Shown piece after piece: positions 3,871-18,808 of a DNA stretch of 56,727 bases. The notes below the pieces were generated by a model. It saw only the letters and a program-made list of their open reading frames with translations. It did not search any database and had not been told where the DNA came from. Made by a program: the position numbers and the translations under genes. The stretch comes from Deltaproteobacteria bacterium (GTDB lineage: Bacteria > Desulfobacterota > Syntrophia > Syntrophales > UBA8958), in assembly GCA_029553375.1 (NCBI GenBank), contig JAKPCH010000036.1, positions 1 through 56,727 on the forward strand, read 5' to 3'. Every line of letters begins with the position of its first letter. The stretch's first letter is position 1.

Positions 3871-4666
3871 GGTGGTGGGCAAAGACATCGAGGACTTCGA
3901 CCTGACGTCCTTCGCGTCCGTCCGCGACGTCGTCGAGGAGGCGCGGCCGGAGGTTTTGATCAACGCCGCCGCCTACACGGACGTCGACGGCGCCGAGAGG
4001 GACGAGACGAGGTGTTTCGCCGTCAACGCCCTCGGGGTGGAAAACGTCGTCCGGGCCTGTGGTCCCCTGGCCGTGTGCGTGGTCCACATCAGTACCGATT
4101 ACGTCTTCGACGGGACGAAGGGCTCGCCCTACACGGAGGAGGACAGCCCCTCGCCCCTCGGCGTTTACGCCCGGTCGAAGGCCGAGGGGGAAAGGATCCT
4201 CATCTCCGGGGGCGGCGACTACCTCCTGATCAGGACGGCCTGGCTCTACGGCCGCCACGGACGCAACTTCGTCCGGACGATCCTCGACAAGGCCAGGGCG
4301 GAGGGGAGGCTGGCCGTCGTCAGCGATCAATTCGGATCCCCCACCTGGTCCTGGGACCTTGCCGGGGCGATAAAACATCTCCTGGAGAACAACCACCGCG
4401 GCATTTTCCATGTCACCAACAGGGGGTCCTGCAGCTGGTACGACTTCGCCTGCAAGATCCTCTCCTATGCCGGCCTGGAGGGGGTGAAGGTGGAAGCCAT
4501 ACCCTCCTCCCGCCTCGACCGGCCCGCCCCGCGACCCCCCTACGCCGTCCTGAGCGGCCGCAAGTTCAACACCGTCACGGGGAGGACCATGAGGCCCTGG
4601 CAGCTGGCCCTGAGGGAGTTCGTCGCCAAGATGGCCCGGAATGGGGTTATGAACGATCTGACTTGA
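3797..4666 (+). CDS. rfbD: dTDP-4-dehydrorhamnose reductase family protein
   Basis: NAD(P)H-dependent SDR-type reductase that makes dTDP-L-rhamnose in the known family, 289 aa. The Rossmann motif is 'GHRGMLGSDL' at residues 7-16 (GxxGxxG). Next come 'INAAAYTDVDGAERD', 'HISTDYVFDGTK' with the Ser/Thr, and the catalytic 'YARSK'. Later elements are 'TAWLYGRHGRNFVRT' and 'DQFGSPTW'. The ATG at 3797 lies inside truA, preceded by an AGGGGG ribosome site. No rfbA, rfbB or rfbC is in the window, so the product would feed envelope polysaccharide from elsewhere. Confidence 0.9.
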   Translation: MRILILGHRGMLGSDLMSRLGGDHEVVGKDIEDFDLTSFASVRDVVEEARPEVLINAAAYTDVDGAERDETRCFAVNALGVENVVRACGPLAVCVVHISTDYVFDGTKGSPYTEEDSPSPLGVYARSKAEGERILISGGGDYLLIRTAWLYGRHGRNFVRTILDKARAEGRLAVVSDQFGSPTWSWDLAGAIKHLLENNHRGIFHVTNRGSCSWYDFACKILSYAGLEGVKVEAIPSSRLDRPAPRPPYAVLSGRKFNTVTGRTMRPWQLALREFVAKMARNGVMNDLT

Positions 4667-4691
4667 CAGCATGTAATTGACCCTGTAGTGT
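4663..4691 (+). promoter_or_regulatory. Putative sigma70 promoter of the envelope lipoprotein cluster
   Basis: TTGACA (4663-4668), 17-base spacer, TAGTGT (4686-4691). It overlaps the rfbD stop codon. A start about seven bases after the -10 box would fall at or next to the ATG at 4699, and no Shine-Dalgarno sequence is visible there. The transcript may therefore be leaderless or nearly so. Confidence 0.45.
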
Positions 4692-4698
4692 TTCGGCC

Positions 4699-5796
4699 AT
4701 GGCAATGAAAAAAACCCTTGCCCTCGTCTTTTCCCTTCTCTTGCTCCTGACCGGCTCGGTTTGGGGCCAGGACAAGGTGCGGGCCGTCGGGACCGCCGCC
4801 GTCCACGGGGAAAAAACCGACGCCGCCCGGGACAAGGCCCTCGACAACGCCCTGCGCAACGCCGTGGAGGAGAAGGCGGGGGTCATGGTGACGGGTGTCA
4901 CGGAGGTGCAGGACTTCCAGGTCAAGATGGACCAGATCCTCTCCGAGTCCCGCGGGTTCGTCAAAAACTACCGCGTCCTGGAAGAGGGCAGGCGGGGCCG
5001 GGAATATCGGGTCGTCATCGAGGCCGAGGTGGAGACGGGGCGTCTGAGGGACAGGATGGAGGCCCTGCAGCTCTTGATGGTGAGGAAGGAAAAGCCGCGC
5101 CTGTTGCTCCTTTTCCAGGGCAAGGGCAAGGCGGAGGCCACGGCGGAGGCGGTCCTGACCCGCGTCTTGATGGCCGAGGGATTCAAACTGGTCGATTACA
5201 CGCCCCAAGGCGGGGAGGGCATCTCGGCCGCCGTGTTCAGGGCCGACCGGAAGGCCGTCGCCTCCCTGGCGAGGACCTCGGGGGCCGAGGTCATCATCCT
5301 CCTGGCCCTGGAGGACACCCCCCGCTCGTTCAAGATGGGGGAGATCGAGGTCAAGTCCCATGAGATCTCCCTCGCCCACAAGATCGTCAACGGCGACACG
5401 GGGGAGGTCATCGCCTCGGGGGTCAGGACCCAGAAGGGCGACTTCAAGGAGACCGTGGAGGCCGTCTCCACCCGTGTGGGGAGAGAGATAAGGGACGCCG
5501 TGATCCAGCAGTGGACCTCGGAGGTGACGAACGTCGTCACCATCAGGCTCCACGTCGAGGGCCTCAAGGGTTACCGGGACGTTGACGAACTCAATGAGGC
5601 CCTCCGGGAAGGTATAAAGGGCCTGAAACAGATCTATCAAAGGTCCTACTCCCGGGGCGAGGTGGAGATGGACCTCGAGGTAAGGGGGACCACCCGGGGG
5701 GTGGCGGAGGATCTATCGGTCATCCGGGCCGGCGGCCGGTCCCTCCACGTCGTCGAGATGACCGCCAGCCGCATCGCCGCCGTTTTGAGGGATTGA
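4699..5796 (+). CDS. Exported FlgT-like protein (LPP20/FlgT-N domain plus ABD-like middle domain)
   Basis: Exported protein of 365 aa with a signal peptide (basic 'MKK', hydrophobic core, likely cleavage near residue 23). Residues about 27-115 resemble the N-terminal domain of flagellar FlgT/LPP20 proteins, with a repeated-Ala helix 'DKALDNALRNAVEEKAG' followed by 'GFVKNYRVLEE' and 'YRVVIEAEVE'. Residues about 120-230 match the ABD-like pattern of CsgG/FlgT-M/GNA1162: strand 'RLLLLF', then 'FKLVDY', then 'SGAEVIILLALED'. The C-terminal domain (about 250-365) is unassigned. An ATG at 4705 is an alternative start. It is first of six co-directional envelope genes. There is no flagellar gene nearby, so a role in an outer-membrane assembly other than the flagellum is inferred. 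Confidence 0.7.
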   Translation: MAMKKTLALVFSLLLLLTGSVWGQDKVRAVGTAAVHGEKTDAARDKALDNALRNAVEEKAGVMVTGVTEVQDFQVKMDQILSESRGFVKNYRVLEEGRRGREYRVVIEAEVETGRLRDRMEALQLLMVRKEKPRLLLLFQGKGKAEATAEAVLTRVLMAEGFKLVDYTPQGGEGISAAVFRADRKAVASLARTSGAEVIILLALEDTPRSFKMGEIEVKSHEISLAHKIVNGDTGEVIASGVRTQKGDFKETVEAVSTRVGREIRDAVIQQWTSEVTNVVTIRLHVEGLKGYRDVDELNEALREGIKGLKQIYQRSYSRGEVEMDLEVRGTTRGVAEDLSVIRAGGRSLHVVEMTASRIAAVLRD

Positions 5797-5854
5797 TAGG
5801 GATTGATGAGTAACCGTGGGAAACAATCCAGGGTATAGCTCCAGGGAGGAAGAG

Positions 5855-7843
5855 ATGAAGACCACCAAAGTGTCGAGGTTCGCCCTTGCCGTCTTGATGC
5901 TGATCGTTCTCTTTGCCTGCGCCCCGAGCGAGGTCTACAAGATCGGCCAGGACATGATGGCCCAGAACCGGCCCGACGACGCCATCGGTTACTTCGAACA
6001 GGCCCTGCGGGAGGAGCCGGACAACAAGGAATACCAGGACAGCCTCTTGCAGGCCAAGGAGGCGGCGGCCAAGGGTCATTACACCAAGGCGCGGAGGCTC
6101 TTGGAATCGACGCCGGAGGTGACGTTCGCCACCCTCGAGCAGGTGGTGAAAGAGGCCGATCTGGCCTTCAAACTCGATCCCAAGAACGCCGAGATAGCCG
6201 CTTTCCAGAAACAGGCCCAGACCAGGATGAGGACCTTTCAAGAAAACCTAAAGGCCCTCTACGCCCAGGCCGAGCAGGACATGGCCAAGGAGGACTGGGT
6301 GGCGGCGGTGACGAAACTGAGGCAGATCAACCGTCTCTTCCCCAACTACGAGGAGACGGGGGCCCGTCTCCTCAAGGCGGAACAGGAGGGAAGCAAGGCC
6401 TTCTACCAGCAGGGGATACAGCTGGGGCAACAGGAAGATTGGAAGATGGCCTCCTTAGCCTTCAAGAACGTTTTGGATATCAACCCCAACTACATGGACG
6501 CGGCCCGTCTCTACGAAGAGGCGAAGGGTAAGGACAACGCCGGATACTACTTAAAGAGGGCCGAGGAGGCGGTGCAGAGGTCGGAATGGCCGCGGGCCGT
6601 CCTCCTCCTGGAAAAGGCCCTGGAGTATAACCCCGACGACGCCGCCGTTGCCAAGAAGCTCGACGACGTCAAGCAGAAGGCGGCCCGGGTTTATTTCGAA
6701 GAGGCCCGGCGCCAGATCGACAGGGGTCAGCTCTACGGGGCCGTCAAGGGTATGAATCTGGCCAGGACCTACCTGCCTTTCATCCAGGGCGAGGCCCCTT
6801 ACAAAGAGGCCCTCAAGACCCTGACGGGCAAATTGATGGAGAAGGCCGACAAATTCGCCGAGCGGGAGCTCTGGGGGAACGCCCTCGTCTGGCTGCAGAA
6901 CGTCGAACTCCTCAACCCCTCCCATCCGGATCTCTTCCAGAAGATGATCGACGTCCGGGACCGCATCAACAAACGCATCCGTAAATCCATCGCCGTCTTC
7001 GATTTCGGCAGCCCGAGCAACAACAGAGACGCCGGCAGGATCGTGGCCGACAAGCTCATGACCTTCCTCCACAAGAACGCCAGCGGCGACCTGAGGATCA
7101 TCGAGAGGGAGAACCTCCAGTCCATCCTCAGGGAGATGCAGCTCGGCCAGACGGGGATCGTCGATATCAAGTCGGCCCAGACGGTAGGGAAGATGCGCGG
7201 CATCGACACCTTCATCATGGGTAACGTGCTTCACTATTCCGCCAAGATGACGGACAACCCCAGCACCGCCCAGGTGAAGGTCCTCGTCGATGAAGAGGAG
7301 GTCCCGAATCCCGAGTTTCAGACCTGGCTGATCCTCCACCAGCGGCCGACGGAGGAGGAGTGGAAAACCGCCCCGCCCCGCACGATGAAGAAGAAGAACT
7401 ATCAGTTTGTGTCCTATCGCCAGGGGGTGGCCAAGATCAACGCCATCTTCGAGATCTCCTACAAGCTCGTCGACACCCTTTCGGGGGAGAATATCTTCAC
7501 CAACACCATCGCCGGCCGCACCGTCAAGGAAGACAAGTACCAGGACGCCGTGCCCATGGCCAATATCGTCCATGACCCCCTCGAGTTGCCGACGGAGACG
7601 GAGGTCCTCGACGACCTGACGAACGCCAAGGTCACCGAGATGGGCCAGAGTGTCCTGAAGCATTTCCAGAGCCTCGAGACGGTCTACTTCAACGAGGCCC
7701 AACTCCACCAGAAGCGACGCAACTTCGAGCAGGCCGTGGAGAAGTACATGGACGCCGTTTTCGACGAGAAGCTCAAAGGCATCACGACACCCATTACCAA
7801 GAAGTCTCTGGAATCGATCGATAAATTGATGCAGAACCTGTAG
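5855..7843 (+). CDS. TPR lipoprotein with C-terminal CsgG-like domain
   Basis: Predicted outer-membrane lipoprotein, 662 aa from the ATG at 5855, which follows AGGGAGGAAGAG; an upstream ATG at 5816 has no ribosome site. The lipobox 'LFAC' puts the lipidated Cys at residue 22. Residues about 25-370 are helical TPR-like repeats ('GYFEQALREEPDNKEY', 'AFKNVLDINPNYMDAARLY', 'LLEKALEYNPDDAAVAKKL'). Residues about 375-480 match CsgG-type domains: 'KSIAVFDFGSP', 'LRIIERENLQSILRE', 'GIDTFIMGNV'. The C-terminal part is rich in beta strands and ends in another TPR-like helix pair. The repeats suggest a scaffold binding partners such as its cluster neighbours. Confidence 0.8.
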   Translation: MKTTKVSRFALAVLMLIVLFACAPSEVYKIGQDMMAQNRPDDAIGYFEQALREEPDNKEYQDSLLQAKEAAAKGHYTKARRLLESTPEVTFATLEQVVKEADLAFKLDPKNAEIAAFQKQAQTRMRTFQENLKALYAQAEQDMAKEDWVAAVTKLRQINRLFPNYEETGARLLKAEQEGSKAFYQQGIQLGQQEDWKMASLAFKNVLDINPNYMDAARLYEEAKGKDNAGYYLKRAEEAVQRSEWPRAVLLLEKALEYNPDDAAVAKKLDDVKQKAARVYFEEARRQIDRGQLYGAVKGMNLARTYLPFIQGEAPYKEALKTLTGKLMEKADKFAERELWGNALVWLQNVELLNPSHPDLFQKMIDVRDRINKRIRKSIAVFDFGSPSNNRDAGRIVADKLMTFLHKNASGDLRIIERENLQSILREMQLGQTGIVDIKSAQTVGKMRGIDTFIMGNVLHYSAKMTDNPSTAQVKVLVDEEEVPNPEFQTWLILHQRPTEEEWKTAPPRTMKKKNYQFVSYRQGVAKINAIFEISYKLVDTLSGENIFTNTIAGRTVKEDKYQDAVPMANIVHDPLELPTETEVLDDLTNAKVTEMGQSVLKHFQSLETVYFNEAQLHQKRRNFEQAVEKYMDAVFDEKLKGITTPITKKSLESIDKLMQNL

Positions 7844-7884
7844 AGCGGGCGGGATTTACCTTAAGAAGCCCAAGGAGAAGGCGT

Positions 7885-10161
7885 ATGAGAACCCGCGGCA
7901 GATCGGTGGGCACTTTCCTCCCCGTGGCTTTGGCGGTCGCCTTTTGCCTCGTCTTTACCACGACGGCGTCGGCCGCCCCGCCGGCGGTGGTGAAGATCTC
8001 CGTGTTCAATTTCGGGTCCGTCAACATCGACGCCGCCGGTTACGGGACGACGGTCTCCAACATGCTCATCAACTCCCTCTCCGCCGACCCTTCTCTCGTG
8101 ATCCTCGAACGTAAGGAACTGGAGGCCTTTCTGGCCCTCAACGACCTCCAGCAGAACGACGACGTCAACAACGCCGTCAACATCGGCACGCGCCTCGCCC
8201 TGGACGTCGTCGTCGTGGGCACGGTGGAGAAGAAGGGACCCGTCATCACCATCCGGGCCAACACCATCCAGGTCGACAAGAGGAGATCGATCCTCCACTC
8301 ACGGGTGGCGGCCCTGGGCGACGCGGGTCTCATGACGGAGGTGCGGAAACTCGCCGAGGACATCCGTAAGGCCATCGGCGCCCACCTCCTGGGAGGGAGG
8401 GAAGAGGAGAAGGCCTCCATCGGCGTCCCCGGCAACATCAGAAAGAGATCCTCGGCCACGCGGGTGTCTTTGTCCTGGGACCCCCCCGCGGGAAAGGTGG
8501 CGGGATACGAGGTCTTTCGTTCCTCCGCGGAGGCGGGGCCCTTCGCCAGGGTCGGTCAGGTGGCCGCCCCGGAGTACACGGACGAGGGCCTCGCAAGAAA
8601 CACGACTTACTATTACAGGGTCCGGGCCTACGACCACCGGGGTCTCCATGGGGACTATTCGCCGGCGATCGCGGCGGAAACGGCCCTTTCCCCCAACCCC
8701 CCCGTCATCCTCTCGACGGAGCCCCATGTCCGCAGCATCACCCTGACCTGGTCGCCCAGTCCCGCTCGCAGCGAAGATCCCCTCAAGCTCAAGGGCTACA
8801 AGGTTTACCGGGCCAAGGTCGAGGCGGGTCCCTACCGTGAGATCGCCAACATCCTCGGGAGCGATCTCGGCCTCGGTCTCGACGAGACCCTCGACAAGAT
8901 CATGAAGGTCCCCCTGGTGGACAGGGGTCTGGCCGACGGCGAGTCCTATTTCTATCGGGTCACGGCCTATAACGAAAAGGGGGTGGAGAGCGATTTCTCG
9001 CGGCCCATGAAGGGTACCACCATCCCCGCCGTCAACGGTCTCACCGCCCGGGGGGACATGGTGAGGGAGATCGAGCTGACCTGGAACTCCCTCGACGAGT
9101 TCTTCTATGTGAGGGGATATTATATCTACCGGAGCACGGCCCCCGACACGGGCTTCTTGAAGATCAAGAAACTGGACTCCACCGAGGCGTCGACAAAGCG
9201 GCTGCGCTACGTCGACACGGAGGGCCTCTCCGATGCGACCCGCTATTACTACAGGGTGACGGCCTTCGAGACGCCCGATCAGGAGACCTCGCCCTCCGTA
9301 ACCGTCTCCGCCGTCACGAAGGGCAAACCCCCGACGGTTTCCCCTCCCCGGGCCCAAGGCGGTCTGGTCAAAAAGGTGGTCCTCACCTGGACGCCTGCGA
9401 CGGCGGAAGACGTGGAAGGATACGTCGTCTACCGTTCCACGACGAAGACGGACGAGTTCCGGCAGGTCAAAAAGATCCGGGGGAGAGAGGCGGGGAGCTA
9501 TACGGACGAGGGGCTCGATGACGGGGCGACGTATTATTATTTTGTCAACACCTTCAACAAGGTCGATGTGGAAAGCGCCGGTGCGCCCGTTGTCTCCGCC
9601 ACGACCAAGCCCCGGCCTTCCCCGCCCCAAGGACTGAAGGCGGAAAGCGGCAAGGCGAGGTCGGTCCCGTTGAGCTGGCAGGCCAACCCGGAAAAGGACG
9701 TGATTCTCTACCACGTCTCGCGGGGGTCTGAGGATGGGCGGTTTGAGGTCGTCGACAAAGTGAAGGCGACCTCCTGGGTCGATCGGGACCTGAAGGACGG
9801 CCGGAGATATGCCTACCGGGTCCAGGCGGAGGATCGGGACGGCCTGTTAAGCGATCCCTCGGCGGTCGTGACGGCGACGACGAAGAACCGGCCCCGCCCC
9901 CCCCGGGACCTCTCGGCGGTGCAGAAAGGCGATCGGGTCGAGCTCACCTGGCAGCCGCCGGGGGAGGAGGATATCAAGGGTTACAACGTTTACGAGAAGG
10001 GGTTCTTCCGGCCCGAACCGGTCTCCATGGGTGTCAAGGGCCTGTCCTTCAGCGACGGGCGGCCGCTGAAGAAGGGGAAGGAGAGGGTCTATCTCGTGAC
10101 GGCCGTGGATAGGGACGATCTGGAGAGCGATCCCCGGGAAGTGGTGATAACGGGGCGGTGA
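7885..10161 (+). CDS. Exported protein with N-terminal CsgG/FlgO-like domain and six fibronectin type III domains
   Basis: 758 aa with a signal peptide ending near the 'ASAA' at residues 28-31. Residues about 33-170 repeat the ABD-like pattern of the preceding gene ('VKISVFNFGSVN', 'LVILERKELEAFL', 'LDVVVVGTV'). Six FnIII modules follow from about residue 185 to the C terminus. Each has a 'V.L.W' strand, 'GY.VYRS' and 'YYYRV.A.D..G..S' ('VSLSWDPP', 'ITLTWSPS', 'IELTWNSL', 'VVLTWTPA', 'VPLSWQAN', 'VELTWQPP'). FnIII arrays usually mediate binding or act as spacers at the cell surface or in the periplasm. I infer an envelope anchor plus rod or adhesive stalk. The ABD-FnIII combination is unusual to my knowledge. 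Confidence 0.78.
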   Translation: MRTRGRSVGTFLPVALAVAFCLVFTTTASAAPPAVVKISVFNFGSVNIDAAGYGTTVSNMLINSLSADPSLVILERKELEAFLALNDLQQNDDVNNAVNIGTRLALDVVVVGTVEKKGPVITIRANTIQVDKRRSILHSRVAALGDAGLMTEVRKLAEDIRKAIGAHLLGGREEEKASIGVPGNIRKRSSATRVSLSWDPPAGKVAGYEVFRSSAEAGPFARVGQVAAPEYTDEGLARNTTYYYRVRAYDHRGLHGDYSPAIAAETALSPNPPVILSTEPHVRSITLTWSPSPARSEDPLKLKGYKVYRAKVEAGPYREIANILGSDLGLGLDETLDKIMKVPLVDRGLADGESYFYRVTAYNEKGVESDFSRPMKGTTIPAVNGLTARGDMVREIELTWNSLDEFFYVRGYYIYRSTAPDTGFLKIKKLDSTEASTKRLRYVDTEGLSDATRYYYRVTAFETPDQETSPSVTVSAVTKGKPPTVSPPRAQGGLVKKVVLTWTPATAEDVEGYVVYRSTTKTDEFRQVKKIRGREAGSYTDEGLDDGATYYYFVNTFNKVDVESAGAPVVSATTKPRPSPPQGLKAESGKARSVPLSWQANPEKDVILYHVSRGSEDGRFEVVDKVKATSWVDRDLKDGRRYAYRVQAEDRDGLLSDPSAVVTATTKNRPRPPRDLSAVQKGDRVELTWQPPGEEDIKGYNVYEKGFFRPEPVSMGVKGLSFSDGRPLKKGKERVYLVTAVDRDDLESDPREVVITGR

Positions 10162-10185
10162 CCGGACCGCGCCGTCGCCGGGCCA

Positions 10186-10938
10186 ATGGTTCACCCCGTT
10201 GAGAGATGCGGTTTCGGAAGGACTTACGTCGTCTCCTGTCCGGAAGGCCTGTTGGTGGTTGACGTGGGCAGCGTCGCGGCGGCCCGGGAGACGATCCTCT
10301 TTGTGGAAGGAGTTTTGGGGAGCCCCCCTTCCCAGGTCCGCTATGTATTGGCCACCCATTTCCACGTCGACCACATCGGGGGTATCGGACATTTACTGGA
10401 CCGGTGCGGCGACGGGACCCGGGTTCTTTTCCATAGGGCCGTGGGGGACTACCTGGAGGGTGTAAGACCCATCCCGGTCATGAAGAACTGGATCAAGGGC
10501 CTGCTCCCCGTCACCCGCAGGACGGTCACCCGGGTGAGGCGCCTCTCGGAGCTCTTCGTTGAGTCCCCCGCCGGTATCCCTCTCCCCCTCTTGAGGCACT
10601 GGTCGGCCCTGCCTTTCGAGAGGGAGAAGATCGTGTTTGCCCATGAGGGATTCCCCCTGGGTTTGGGGGACTGGGAAGTCCTCGAGACCCCCGGCCACAC
10701 CTCCGATTCCCTCTCCCTCTATTCCCGTGGGGAGGGGGTGTTGATCTGCGGCGATCTGATCCACAACGTCTTCGACGACGGGAGGGGCAGATTGAACGGC
10801 TTTTACGAGGATCGCGACGAGATTGTGAAGACCTATGAGGCCTTGGCCATGACCCTGAGGGTGGATAGGATCTACCCCGGCCACGGCGAGGTGATCCTGG
10901 GGGAGGGCGACGCCCTCGCCGGGGTGGTACCCCTTTGA
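10186..10938 (+). CDS. MBL-fold metallo-hydrolase
   Basis: Metallo-beta-lactamase-fold hydrolase of 250 aa. The metal site reads 'THFHVDHIGG' near residue 63 (HxHxDH), then 'ETPGHTSDSLSLY', 'CGDLIH' and 'GHGEV'. There is no signal peptide, so it is probably cytoplasmic. The sequence does not show the substrate; the general fold covers thioesterases, glyoxalase II and others. It sits 24 bases after the FnIII gene and 24 before the beta-helix lipoprotein, inside a run of exported proteins. It may therefore serve the same system, for example by processing or detoxification, but this is inference. Confidence 0.85.
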   Translation: MVHPVERCGFGRTYVVSCPEGLLVVDVGSVAAARETILFVEGVLGSPPSQVRYVLATHFHVDHIGGIGHLLDRCGDGTRVLFHRAVGDYLEGVRPIPVMKNWIKGLLPVTRRTVTRVRRLSELFVESPAGIPLPLLRHWSALPFEREKIVFAHEGFPLGLGDWEVLETPGHTSDSLSLYSRGEGVLICGDLIHNVFDDGRGRLNGFYEDRDEIVKTYEALAMTLRVDRIYPGHGEVILGEGDALAGVVPL

Positions 10939-10962
10939 AATGGGGGGCGGAGGGAAAGGAAC

Positions 10963-13719
10963 ATGAAGAGGATTTCGGTATTTCTTTGGACGATAGCCCT
11001 CGTTCTATCTCTGTTGATCTTGGAGGGTTGTGTCGTCGCCACGAAGGAAACGGCCATCGCCCCGGAGATCAGGTCTCTGTTCGAAGGGAAGTACCACATC
11101 TACCCCTACATGGAGAAACACATCCCCCGCACCGTGGCGGTGCTGCCGTTCCTGGACCTCTCGGGGAGCCAGCAGGGGGCCCAGGCCGTCCGCCGGGGGT
11201 TCTACAACCATTTCAGTTCCCTTCCCTTCAAGGACATGGAGATCCAGAGAATTGACGATCTCCTCGGGAAGGCGGGTCTGAATGACCCCGTCGAGATCAA
11301 CAAGAAATCACCCCAGGACCTGGGGAAGATCCTCGGTGTCGACGCCGTCGTCTACGGCGAGATCTCGAACTTCGATAAGCTCTTCGCCGTCATGTACTCT
11401 CAGGTGGCCGTCGGGGCCAAGATCAGGATGCACGACACGAAGTCGGGCGAGGTCCTCTGGACGGGGGAGCACACCGTGAGGATCCACGAGGGGGGCATCT
11501 CCCTGAGTCCCATCGGCATCGTCGCCACCATCGTCGCCACGGCCATGAACGTGAGGGATATACAGCTCTTGCGGGCCTGTGACGACCTTTTCCGGGACAT
11601 GGTCAAGACCATCCCGGCCCCGCCCTTGGCCGAGGCCCTCCGTCCCCCCGTCATCACCCTCCTTGTCCAGGATACGAAGAACCTGCCCAAGAAGGCGGGC
11701 GACGAGATCAGGGTGGTCATTCAGGGGACACCGAAGATGAGGGCCTACTTCGACATCGGCGATTACCGGAAAGGGATCGACATGCAGGAGCAGGCCGATT
11801 CTCCGGGTGTCTATCTCGGTGTCTACCGCGTCGTCCCCGGGGATGATTGCCGCAAGGCGATCATTACGGGTTACCTCAAGGACGATGCCGGGGCGGTCAC
11901 CCAGTGGGTGGACGCCATAGGCAGCGTGACCCTCAAGACCACTCCCCCGCCGAAGCCCTCTTTCTTGAAGACCGTCGGCCGGGACGGGGTGGTCCTCCTC
12001 TCTTGGGGGGACGTCAAGGATCCGGACCTGGCAGGTTACCGCCTCTATCGAAGCCTGACCCCCCTGTCGGGTTTCACGGAGGTGGCCAAGGTCGAGGTGA
12101 CCCAGTACCGTGACGCCGGCCTCACCAACGGCGTTCGCTATTACTACGCCCTCTCGGCGGTGGACCTGGCGGGGAACGAGAGCGAGCGGGCCGTCGCCGA
12201 GGGTGTCCCCGTCGCCCCCGGTCCCACGCCGGTGAGGGGCGTCATCGATAAAAACACGACCTGGTATGCCGGGGCGAGCCCTTACATCATCGAGGAGACG
12301 GTGGTGGTCAAGGACAAGGCGACCCTCTTCGTGGAGGCGGGGACGGAGATCCGGTCCCGGGGCGGGGCTTTGGTAGTGGAGGGCAACCTCACCGCCCGGG
12401 GTGACGAGGGGCACCTCATCTCCTGGGCCCCCGCCGAGGGGGTAAAGACCTGGGAGGGTATCGTCTTCAGGAACGTCAAGGAGAAAGAAAACGTCCTGAC
12501 CTACAACAAGATCACCGGTGCCGTCGCGGGCGTGACCTGCATCGCCTCTTCCCCCGCCGTCACCGCCTCGGAATTCACGGGTAACGTCACGGGGATCTCC
12601 GTCTCCGGGGCCTTTTCCAAACCCGTCATCGAGAGGTGTGCCTTCCGGGACAACCAGGGGGCCGGTGTGGCCGTAACGGAAGGGGCGCAGCCGACGGTGA
12701 GGGAAAACACCATCCAGGGGAACGGCAAGGGGGGTGTTTACGTCCAGGGGGCGGCGCCCGTCATCGCCCGCAACGTCGTCACCCAGAACGAGGGCGGGGG
12801 CATCGTGGTCCTCAAGAGCGCCGCCGTCATCAACGAGAACAACATCCACCACAATCGGCCCTTCAACATCGTGGGGGCCATGGACGGGGCCGCCGTCAAC
12901 GCCCGGGAGAATTGGTGGGGGACGGCGAAGGGCCTGGAGGTCTTGGCCTCCGTCAAGGGGCGCGTCGACGTCTCGGTGATCCTCGATGGACCCTACCCCG
13001 GCGGTAAAAAGGTCAGCCTCCCCATCCTCCCCTCCGAATTGAGGGGGACGATCAAGAAGGACGCCCTGCTGACCCTCTCCCAGAGCCCCTACCGGGTCGA
13101 GGGTGAGGTCTCCCTCGAAGACGGCGCCCTCCTCCATATCGAGCCCGGCGTCGTCATCCAGTATGATCAGGGGGCCGTCATCGTGGTGAACGACGGGGGC
13201 ATCGTGGCCCGGGGGACAAGGGAGAATCCCATCGTCTTCACCGCCTCCGCCGCCTCGCCCTCGGCCGGCTTCTACGCCTCCGCCGTCCGCTTCGCCCGGC
13301 CCACGAAGGTGAACAGCGCCTTTTCCCATTGCGTGGTCAAATACGCCTCCATCGCCTTCGACATCCACCGGGGCAACCCCGAGATCACGAAGTGCCATAT
13401 CGCCCATAACAGCCAGGCGGGGATCTACGTGAGAAACGATGGGGCCCCCGTCATAACCTACAACACCCTGACGGCCAACGGGGGCGAGGGGGCCCTCAAG
13501 TGTGTCGGCAACTCGCGCCCCCTGATCAACTTCAACAACATCGAGGGGAACGACTTTGCCATCCAGGCCCTCTCCACCATCTATCTCGACGCCCGCCACA
13601 ACTGGTGGGGGAAGAGCCCCCCCGATTTGGGGATGATCCTGGGGGATCTGGAGCGGAACGTCAACATCAAGCCCTGGCTGGATGCCCCGGAGGCTCAGGC
13701 CTTCGCGGTCAAACCTTGA
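10963..13719 (+). CDS. GNA1162-like lipoprotein fused to FnIII and right-handed parallel beta-helix domains
   Basis: 918 aa lipoprotein; the lipobox 'LEGC' gives Cys23. Residues about 45-215 resemble the DUF799/GNA1162 lipoprotein family: 'RTVAVLPFLDLSG', 'MEIQRIDDLL', 'GVDAVVYGEI'. A beta-rich linker covers about 222-325. One FnIII domain ('VVLLSWGDVKDPDLAGYRLYRS') covers about 330-420. The rest is a pectate-lyase-like parallel beta-helix in two blocks. Each block ends alike, 'ARENWWGTAKGL' near residue 650 and 'ARHNWWGKSPPDL' near residue 885, which indicates an internal duplication. Such helices are common in surface adhesins and polysaccharide-binding proteins. I cannot assign an enzymatic residue set. 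Confidence 0.8.
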   Translation: MKRISVFLWTIALVLSLLILEGCVVATKETAIAPEIRSLFEGKYHIYPYMEKHIPRTVAVLPFLDLSGSQQGAQAVRRGFYNHFSSLPFKDMEIQRIDDLLGKAGLNDPVEINKKSPQDLGKILGVDAVVYGEISNFDKLFAVMYSQVAVGAKIRMHDTKSGEVLWTGEHTVRIHEGGISLSPIGIVATIVATAMNVRDIQLLRACDDLFRDMVKTIPAPPLAEALRPPVITLLVQDTKNLPKKAGDEIRVVIQGTPKMRAYFDIGDYRKGIDMQEQADSPGVYLGVYRVVPGDDCRKAIITGYLKDDAGAVTQWVDAIGSVTLKTTPPPKPSFLKTVGRDGVVLLSWGDVKDPDLAGYRLYRSLTPLSGFTEVAKVEVTQYRDAGLTNGVRYYYALSAVDLAGNESERAVAEGVPVAPGPTPVRGVIDKNTTWYAGASPYIIEETVVVKDKATLFVEAGTEIRSRGGALVVEGNLTARGDEGHLISWAPAEGVKTWEGIVFRNVKEKENVLTYNKITGAVAGVTCIASSPAVTASEFTGNVTGISVSGAFSKPVIERCAFRDNQGAGVAVTEGAQPTVRENTIQGNGKGGVYVQGAAPVIARNVVTQNEGGGIVVLKSAAVINENNIHHNRPFNIVGAMDGAAVNARENWWGTAKGLEVLASVKGRVDVSVILDGPYPGGKKVSLPILPSELRGTIKKDALLTLSQSPYRVEGEVSLEDGALLHIEPGVVIQYDQGAVIVVNDGGIVARGTRENPIVFTASAASPSAGFYASAVRFARPTKVNSAFSHCVVKYASIAFDIHRGNPEITKCHIAHNSQAGIYVRNDGAPVITYNTLTANGGEGALKCVGNSRPLINFNNIEGNDFAIQALSTIYLDARHNWWGKSPPDLGMILGDLERNVNIKPWLDAPEAQAFAVKP

Positions 13720-13795
13720 GAAAAGGTCTTGTAGGCAGGGGTGGTATTTGTTAGGATGGGATCGAAAGGGAACAAAGTAAAGTGAGGAGGAAGAC

Positions 13796-14704
13796 ATGAG
13801 GAGAAAAAAAGGGATGTTGTGCGGAGCGATCCTGGCGGCGATGGTTTTTCTGCTGGCCGGGACGGGCTTCTGCCAGGACGACGCGAAGGTGAGCCTGAAG
13901 GATTGGACGAAGATCTTGGAATCCAAGGTGGCGGAACAGGTGGGCGATAAGGGGATCGTCAACTACGAGGACCAGTATATCGAGGTCGTGGCCATCGGTG
14001 CGCCCCCCGAGAGGTACTACGGCAAACCCCAGGCCCGGCCCCTGTGCATCCGGGCCGCCAAGGTCGTGGCCATGAGGGACATCCTCGAGATCGTCCAGGG
14101 GGTACGTATCGACTCTGAGACCATGGTCAAGGATTACGTGGTGGAATCGGACACCATCAAGGCCGCCGTGAACGGCATCGTGAAGAACGTCGTCCAGGTG
14201 GGCGAGCCCAGCTACATGTCCGACGGGACCTGTGAGGTCAAGTATCGCATGTCCATGAAGGGGCCCTTCATGCAGGCCATCCTCCCCAAGGCCATCGCCG
14301 ACGACAAGAAGACCGACACGCCTCCCCCCAAGGTCAAGGTGAGGCCCACTCCCCCCGGGGAAGAGGTATACACGGGCCTGGTCGTGGACGCCCGGGGTCT
14401 CAATGCCCGCCCGGCCATGTCTCCCAAGGTCTTTGACGAGGACGGCAAGGAGGTTTACGGATCCCTCGTCGTCAGCAAGGAGTACGCCGTTCAGCAGGGT
14501 ATCAGCGGTTACGCCCGCGATCTCACGGCGGCCCAGAGCAATCCGAGGGTGACGAACAACCCCCTGACGGTCAAGGCCATCTCCGCCGAAGGGCCGGGCC
14601 GCTCCGACCTCAAGATCAGCAATCAGGACGCCGGCAAGCTCAGGGGGATCAAGGAGAATCAGGCCTTCATGAAGCAGTGCCGCGTCATGATCGTTCTCGA
14701 TTGA
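13796..14704 (+). CDS. Exported LPP20/FlgP-like protein
   Basis: 302 aa with a signal peptide (basic 'MRRKK', hydrophobic 7-22); the Cys26 context 'TGFC' is a poor lipobox. Residues about 75-165 resemble LPP20-type domains, with an Ala-rich helix 'IRAAKVVAMRDILEIVQG' followed by 'GIVKNVVQVGEPSY' and 'DGTCEVKYRMSMKG'. The C-terminal part ('YTGLVVDARGLNARPAMSPKV' region) is a separate beta-rich domain seen in LPP20-like proteins that I cannot name. In vibrios, LPP20-type FlgP works with FlgO and FlgT in the flagellar outer-membrane ring; here it closes the six-gene cluster. A GAGGAGGAAG ribosome site precedes the ATG. Confidence 0.72.
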   Translation: MRRKKGMLCGAILAAMVFLLAGTGFCQDDAKVSLKDWTKILESKVAEQVGDKGIVNYEDQYIEVVAIGAPPERYYGKPQARPLCIRAAKVVAMRDILEIVQGVRIDSETMVKDYVVESDTIKAAVNGIVKNVVQVGEPSYMSDGTCEVKYRMSMKGPFMQAILPKAIADDKKTDTPPPKVKVRPTPPGEEVYTGLVVDARGLNARPAMSPKVFDEDGKEVYGSLVVSKEYAVQQGISGYARDLTAAQSNPRVTNNPLTVKAISAEGPGRSDLKISNQDAGKLRGIKENQAFMKQCRVMIVLD

Positions 14705-17605: not shown

Positions 17606-18808
17606 ATGTTTGATCTCGGAAGACACGGACGTTTTTCTGTGGCCCTGGTATTCGCCTTGGCCTGCCTGCTGGCGGTTTCCTGCGCCCCTAAGGCCGCGAA
17701 ACCCGTCAGCGAGATGGATACGCCGGAACATCACTTTTTCACGGGGATGAAGCTTTTGAATCAGGAACGGTTCGACGAGGCCCAGGTGGAGTTTGTCAGG
17801 GCCGTCGAGCTGGACCCCAAGTATGCCAAGGCCTATGTGGGCACGGCCCTGGTCAAGGCCTATCAGAAGGATTTTACCAGTGCCTTCAAACAACTGGAAA
17901 CGGCCTGGGACAACGCCCGGAAGGACGACGAAAAGGTCTTCGTCCACGTGGGCTACATCAGGGTCAATACCATGAGCAAGGCCGCCTGCGTCCGCATCGG
18001 TACGGATTGCGAACAGGACAGGGGATGGCTGGACAAGTGTCGGGATGAATTCTCCAAGGCCGTGGCCATCGACCCCAAATCGTCCGCCGCCTACTATTAC
18101 ATGGGGCTCGCCTACAAGACGGCCCTCGATTTCGTGAAGGCGGGGGAGATGTTCGCCCGCGTCATGGAGATCAAAGGTGAACTCACGGCGGAGGCCGACG
18201 TCCAGTGGAAACTGGTCCAGGACATCCAGCGGGCCATGCCGGGCACCATCACGGGCAAGAAGATCGCCCTTCTCGATAAGATCACCCGCGCGGACGCCGC
18301 CGCCCTCTTTCTCGAGGAGCTGAGGATCGATATCCTTTACGCCAAGCGCACCCCCAAGACCTTCGACACCTCCTTCAAGGACCCCGCGAAGGCCGCCTCC
18401 GTGGGGACGGCGCCGGCCACGGCTTCCGATATCGCCGTTCACCCCTTGCGCGCCGATATCGAGGCCATCCTCGGTCTGGGTGTCCGCGGTCTCGAGAAAC
18501 GTCCCGACGGCAGTTTCGGACCTGAGGATTTCGTGAATCGGGCCGAGTACGCCATGATGATCGAGGACATCCTCATCAAGGTGACGGGGGACAACAGCCT
18601 GGCCACCAAGTACATCGGGTCCACGTCCCCCTTCCCCGATCTGCGGTCGGACCTCCCCTACTTCAATTCCGTGATGGTGGTCACCTCCCGGGGGATCATG
18701 CAGGCCAAGACCATCGCGACGGGCGAGTTCGCCCCCCTGGACACGGTATCGGGGGTGGAGGCCCTGCTGATCATCAAGAAGTTCAAGGAAGAACTCAAGT
18801 TCTTCTAA
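17606..18808 (+). CDS. TPR lipoprotein with C-terminal SLH-like repeats
   Basis: 400 aa predicted lipoprotein; the lipobox 'LAVSC' gives Cys26. Residues about 40-200 are TPR-like ('GMKLLNQERFDEAQVEF', 'AVAIDPKSSAAYYYMGLAYK'). Residues about 220-400 look like S-layer-homology motifs: 'ITRADAAALFLEEL', then 'FGPEDFVNRAEYAMMIEDIL', then 'FPDLRSDLPYFNSVMVV' with 'GEFAPLDTVSGVEALLII'. SLH motifs bind cell-wall polymers or peptidoglycan. A lipoprotein carrying them could tether the outer membrane to the wall. It may belong functionally to the envelope cluster that ends at 14704, although mutL-miaA intervene. A GAGAGAAAGGAG ribosome site is present. Confidence 0.72.
   Translation: MFDLGRHGRFSVALVFALACLLAVSCAPKAAKPVSEMDTPEHHFFTGMKLLNQERFDEAQVEFVRAVELDPKYAKAYVGTALVKAYQKDFTSAFKQLETAWDNARKDDEKVFVHVGYIRVNTMSKAACVRIGTDCEQDRGWLDKCRDEFSKAVAIDPKSSAAYYYMGLAYKTALDFVKAGEMFARVMEIKGELTAEADVQWKLVQDIQRAMPGTITGKKIALLDKITRADAAALFLEELRIDILYAKRTPKTFDTSFKDPAKAASVGTAPATASDIAVHPLRADIEAILGLGVRGLEKRPDGSFGPEDFVNRAEYAMMIEDILIKVTGDNSLATKYIGSTSPFPDLRSDLPYFNSVMVVTSRGIMQAKTIATGEFAPLDTVSGVEALLIIKKFKEELKFF

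Follow-up and report, generated by a model that had tools for sequence, protein, structure and literature searches.

The 56,727-nucleotide window analyzed here (the whole stretch of DNA, one contig of a 2.4-Mb genome) contains a locus suggesting a cell-envelope assembly not described before, with a probable anchor in the cell wall. The known rings of FlgP, FlgT and CsgG-like proteins belong to flagella, curli and exopolysaccharide export, and most products of this locus have domains that build rings in known systems; the reading we prefer, tentatively, is that its products assemble into a periplasmic ring or collar that is non-flagellar and is attached to the outer membrane. No published account of such a module was found in the literature searched, most subscription papers lying outside its reach.

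Gene layout and domains of the products

The genes lie in a co-directional run of pgk, truA, rfbD, A, B, C, D, E, F, mutL, miaA, a TPR/SLH gene and valS, in which the gaps from rfbD onward are -16 to 81 bp. An earlier note on this DNA had described A through F as a six-gene envelope module. All six are present where it placed them and point in one direction with gaps of 24-76 bp (Table 1), and A, B, C, E and F fit the description, but D is a hydrolase without an envelope signature. The set comprises three lipoproteins (B, E and the TPR/SLH gene product), three secreted proteins (A, C and F) and a small secreted protein, G, which is found in relatives. The named relatives of protein B come from Syntrophales, Syntrophaceae, Smithella and "Deltaproteobacteria" assemblies. 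An ARAGORN tRNA-Lys call at bp 2036-2127, antisense inside pgk, is probably a false positive.

Table 1. Genes of the locus and the matches on which their descriptions rest
Gene	Product	Position in window	Strand	Evidence
A	Secreted FlgT-like protein, 365 aa	4699..5796	+	Pfam FlgT_N, Foldseek, VIA
B	Outer-membrane lipoprotein, TPR and CsgG-like ABD	5855..7843	+	Pfam TPR, CsgG 3.8e-8
C	Secreted, short ABD then FnIII domains	7885..10161	+	Pfam fn3 2.4e-36, CsgG 1.1e-3
D	Metallo-beta-lactamase-fold hydrolase	10186..10938	+	Pfam Lactamase_B 4.5e-23
E	Lipoprotein with GNA1162-like ABD, FnIII and beta-helix	10963..13719	+	Pfam GNA1162-like 2.1e-15, Beta_helix 2.6e-26
F	Secreted, FlgP/LPP20-like with C-terminal domain	13796..14704	+	PDB FlgP matches
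TPR/SLH	Seventh component, TPR/SLH (S-layer homology) lipoprotein	17606..18808	+	Pfam TPR_2 2.4e-9, SLH 1.9e-7

By sequence and predicted fold, A is FlgT-like. It has a signal peptide and no lipobox, and consists of an SHS2/LPP20 (FlgT_N) domain (residues 27-111; Pfam 7.2e-9, with 18/18 orthologues matching FlgT_N), an ABD-like middle domain (128-277) and a C-terminal alpha+beta domain (278-365). When its AF2 model (pLDDT 77.5, pTM 0.46) is compared with known structures by Foldseek, Vibrio FlgT (3w1e) is the top match at 5.2e-14 over 404 columns, followed by LPHT-ring FlgT (6.3e-13) and then PelC, CT253, GNA1162 and CsgG; the FlgT arrangement of N plus middle domain is thus present in A. In VIA, residues 130-279 align to these structures with Z about 9-13, the values for PelC, TolB and LPHT-ring FlgT being 11-13, and a PDB profile search with the ABD of A alone gave no meaningful match. 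A also matches NCBIfam LipL46 of Leptospira (2.5e-8, residues 24-287), but at 33 bits this is far under the family cut-off of 400. In one complete genome of 3,179,300 bp, A (L041; G044:C1:2039550-2040652) is split between two frames, by a frameshift or an error. The window's own genome carries a second FlgT_N-like protein, with DUF4384, which adjoins a caspase-domain protein (L056 2867-6012; G000:C44).

Protein B has an invariant lipobox cysteine (Cys22), a TPR superhelix (residues 26-376, bp 5930-6982) and a CsgG-like ABD (376-662, bp 6980-7840), and it is 52-65% identical to 16 relatives over its full length. Its AF2 model is confident for the TPR part only, with the ABD at low confidence; Foldseek with this model returned generic TPR proteins only, and a PDB profile search with the ABD alone had no meaningful match. 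In C, an ABD (residues 33-172, bp 7981-8400) precedes at least six FnIII domains, and Pfam fn3 matches in six stretches. The C ABD alone reached CsgG only at E=0.23 in the PDB profile search, and a distant homolog of C (in L121) matches CsgG, FlgO and TolB_N. Elsewhere in the window's genome (L135 2771-3871; G000:C33) a CsgG/LpoB-like domain is fused to a 3-keto-disaccharide hydrolase domain.

D has a THFHVDHIGG motif and no signal peptide, and is cytoplasmic and optional. It occurs in only some of the syntenic loci, as well as at L130 and L142, which are without A-B-C; as a patchy gene that goes with E rather than with A-B-C, it was rejected as a core part. E has an invariant Cys23, a GNA1162-like ABD (bp 11032-11628) that exceeds the curated GNA1162 cut-off (57.2 vs 25.9 bits), one FnIII-like domain and two right-handed beta-helix stretches. 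In the PDB it matches GNA1162 (4hrv, 1.1e-11), FnIII chains and alginate-epimerase beta-helix chains. E is like the Neisseria GNA1162 and LpoB lipoproteins in its N-terminal domain and lipid anchor, but differs from them in running on into FnIII and beta-helix parts. A short GNA1162-like lipoprotein adjoining a FecR-domain protein is also present in the same genome (L134 5066-6451; G000:C74); this arrangement recurs in relatives (L144, L146 and L138), where a FlgT-like gene stands ahead of the GNA1162-like one, and makes up a second envelope operon that is conserved.

F consists of a FlgP/LPP20-like domain (residues ~56-160) and a conserved C-terminal "YTGLVVDARGL" domain (~190-302). Its best PDB match is Campylobacter jejuni FlgP (9hmf, 1.4e-13); Vibrio FlgP (8z5n) matches at 1e-7, and the C-terminal part matches Tp0624 (5jir) at 1.6e-6. 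Pfam LPP20 is matched by 12/16 F orthologs (best 9.6e-5), the window's own F not being among them, and a lipobox-like site is present in 1/16 F proteins, whereas FlgP is a lipoprotein. In the FlgP/FlgT family, ring formation accompanies a hairpin insert between the SHS2 helix and the second strand (PMC12222027). F aligns gap-free through this insert to 9hmf and 8z5n, and A likewise aligns gap-free to FlgP across the insert region, a part (residues 63-80) that the monomer model of A gives with low confidence. By homology, then, both proteins may form rings.

The earlier note had seen a common pattern in four of these proteins, and its quoted motif strings are found in the translations, E reading "IQRIDDLL" in the place of ERxxL. 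Comparison of family profiles bears the relationship out for B-C (E=1.3e-5), B-E (2.4e-5) and A-C (1.7e-4); for C-E, A-B and A-E the sequences by themselves give no significant score, and the connection there depends on fold or on Pfam relatives in common. ABD domains are present in B and C (both CsgG-like) and in E (GNA1162-like). The likeness of the first and last genes to LPP20/FlgT_N is confirmed by the A-F profile comparison of their LPP20 parts (E=5.8e-7), by Pfam FlgT_N and by the FlgP structure matches, so that both kinds of domain looked for, ABD and LPP20, are present.

The seventh component lies outside the coordinates of the earlier note and matches TPR and SLH only, the SLH match being modest. 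This lipoprotein belongs with F; its family directly adjoins F on the same strand in 20/27 loci outside the class. SLH domains bind peptidoglycan or peptidoglycan-linked polymers in other diderms (PMC9388160). The outer-membrane tethers OmpM and SlpA have an SLH domain that can bind the cell wall. In those tethers, however, the SLH domain and an outer-membrane barrel are in one chain, whereas here the SLH domain sits on a TPR lipoprotein that has no beta-barrel.

Resemblance to export systems

Several of these domains recall machinery that exports polymers or proteins. A polysaccharide export collar, with a PelC-like ring under an unlinked outer-membrane exporter and with the TPR arm, the FnIII domains and the alginate-epimerase-like beta-helix binding the polymer, would account for the fold of A's middle domain, which is near PelC and the PelBC ring, and for the resemblance of E's beta-helix to alginate C5 epimerases. 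Yet neither a PelB barrel nor Pel genes are present at the locus, nor is there a glycosyltransferase, polymerase or barrel, the exception being rfbD, which remains when A-B-C are missing, and beta-helices serve many functions; we regard such a collar as unlikely, although PelC-like support of polymer export is possible (cf. PMC12141448). The locus has no gene for polymer synthesis, for a substrate or for an outer-membrane barrel, so the neighbors do not indicate its purpose.

B and C share their CsgG Pfam domain with the curli channel, and on an outer-membrane lipoprotein such as B this domain could mark a secretion pore, a CsgG-like channel that exports a protein (perhaps G) and is gated and assisted by rings of A, C, E and F. 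G is a small secreted protein with the pattern "YQVVxGxxDNAYLVDTxTGAVW", encoded between C and E in several relatives (for example L034 7396-7830), and in the class it is nearly confined to B-bearing genomes (27/28), as expected of a substrate or a CsgF-like accessory. It has no Pfam match above cut-off and no repeats, however, and it is absent from the window's genome, where it has been lost. In B, the CsgG match ends ahead of the membrane-hairpin region, and the stretches at the hairpin positions are long, proline-rich and charged (22/77 and 12/35 residues), unlike membrane strands, and modeled at low confidence; ~350 residues of TPR, moreover, separate the lipid anchor from the ABD. The composition of these stretches disfavors a CsgG-type pore, which we consider quite unlikely. 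A curli system was rejected: CsgE is present in 0/155 class genomes (an E. coli control was positive), in agreement with the earlier statement that curli genes are lacking.

Gene order and distribution among relatives

Among relatives' loci of up to 20 kb, most have A-B-C followed by E-F in the interval from rfbD to mutL, and the pgk-valS block keeps its synteny throughout the order. As the earlier note supposed, the genes are kept together in related genomes, their order being conserved across many families. The set is made up of two units, A-B-C(-G), whose members travel together also outside the class, and E-F. A-B-C(-G) is relocated in L039 and L048 while E-F stay in place, and E-F are at the usual place without A-B-C in L130, L142 and L143. 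The idea of a six-gene unit was thus right about the clustering but not about the make-up, which is A-B-C(-G) plus E-F, with the TPR/SLH lipoprotein missed. In L039 (Syntrophales) and in L121 and L123 (outside the class) the relocated A-B-C(-G) is near alaS, perhaps an older location.

Co-occurrence was counted in 155 class genomes with hand-set E-value limits. A is found with B in 40 of 43/44 genomes (OR 360) and is directly upstream of it in 39/40, 42/44 and 43/44 B-bearing genomes have E and F, respectively, and all E-bearing genomes (67/67) have F; the genomes counted are related, so the p-values of such co-occurrence are inflated and overstate independence. Other families of the phylum also have full-length B homologs, accompanied by A and C, and F is found in 63/297 sampled genomes of the phylum. 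Outside the class, FlgT-like, GNA1162-like and CsgG genes are near F in L194, L197, L199 and L200. In L122 one run contains the TPR/SLH gene, F, a gene for a transglutaminase-like protein, A, B, C, a G-like gene and an E-like gene whose product has GNA1162, beta-helix and TPR parts.

Synteny of the whole pgk-valS block, and the occurrence of E-F without A-B-C, would also be expected if these were envelope proteins of separate function, held together by operon organization with housekeeping genes rather than as one machine. That A-B-C relocates as a unit, that genomes with B nearly always have E and F too, linked or not, and that the pairing of F with the TPR/SLH gene recurs away from mutL, miaA and valS all argue against this explanation, and make it distinctly doubtful.

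The Vibrio flagellar H-ring (FlgO, FlgP and FlgT) shows both likenesses to the module and differences from it. A shares the FlgT arrangement of N-terminal and middle domains, F the FlgP SHS2 fold with its ring-linked insert, and B, C and E the ABD fold class, which includes FlgO; on the other hand, the module is independent of flagella, F is no lipoprotein, and TPR, FnIII, beta-helix and SLH parts come in addition. FlgP of the C. jejuni basal disk, in turn, is a short flagellar lipoprotein, whereas F adds a second, Tp0624-like domain. FlgI (the P-ring gene) is present in 21/44 B-carriers and 40/111 other class genomes, so that it shows no significant association with B (p=0.2). That these genes do belong to the flagellum, making up an accessory H-ring or basal disk at a distance from the flagellar genes, as the co-location of FlgP, FlgT and ABD relatives and the presence of FlgI in the window's genome might suggest, is very improbable and was rejected on the FlgI distribution, which largely refutes it: 23/44 B-bearing genomes are without FlgI, several of them rated 100% complete, and outside the class 13/27 genomes with F or B have none (14/27 have it). 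The description of the module as "without flagellar genes" holds only locally, since FlgI is elsewhere in the genome (G000:C15). The earlier choice between a non-flagellar ring and a secretion apparatus is narrowed by the results above, the ring-type domains being non-flagellar and non-curli and the CsgG-type secretion pore finding no favor.

A candidate ring or collar at the outer membrane

In the non-flagellar ring or collar that we prefer, the SHS2 domains of A and F, with their hairpin insert, would assemble into rings like those of FlgP and FlgT, and the ABD lipoproteins B and E would hold these rings against the outer membrane on its inner side. The TPR arm of B could serve as a binding platform, and C (ABD and FnIII) and E (FnIII and beta-helix) might make contact with a polymer or a partner, while the TPR/SLH lipoprotein would tie the collar to peptidoglycan. 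E-F with the TPR/SLH lipoprotein have the look of the older base, to which A-B-C-G seems to have been added as a dependent part. Purpose is the least certain part; a static scaffold that stabilizes the envelope, or that helps a surface polymer to be exported or anchored, seems likelier than a protein pore of the CsgG type. A broader proposal, to which we give rather little weight, is that this is a phylum-wide non-flagellar envelope nanomachine, built from FlgT-, FlgP-, GNA1162- and CsgG-type ring proteins and a TPR/SLH wall anchor, and kin of the stock that gave rise to flagellar H-rings and basal disks.

The same building blocks, inherited independently of FlgI, would show what such rings do alone, and the origin of flagellar outer-membrane rings would become testable. 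The envelopes of syntrophic bacteria have received little study, and for their organization the locus names candidate parts, including a possible wall-binding SLH lipoprotein.
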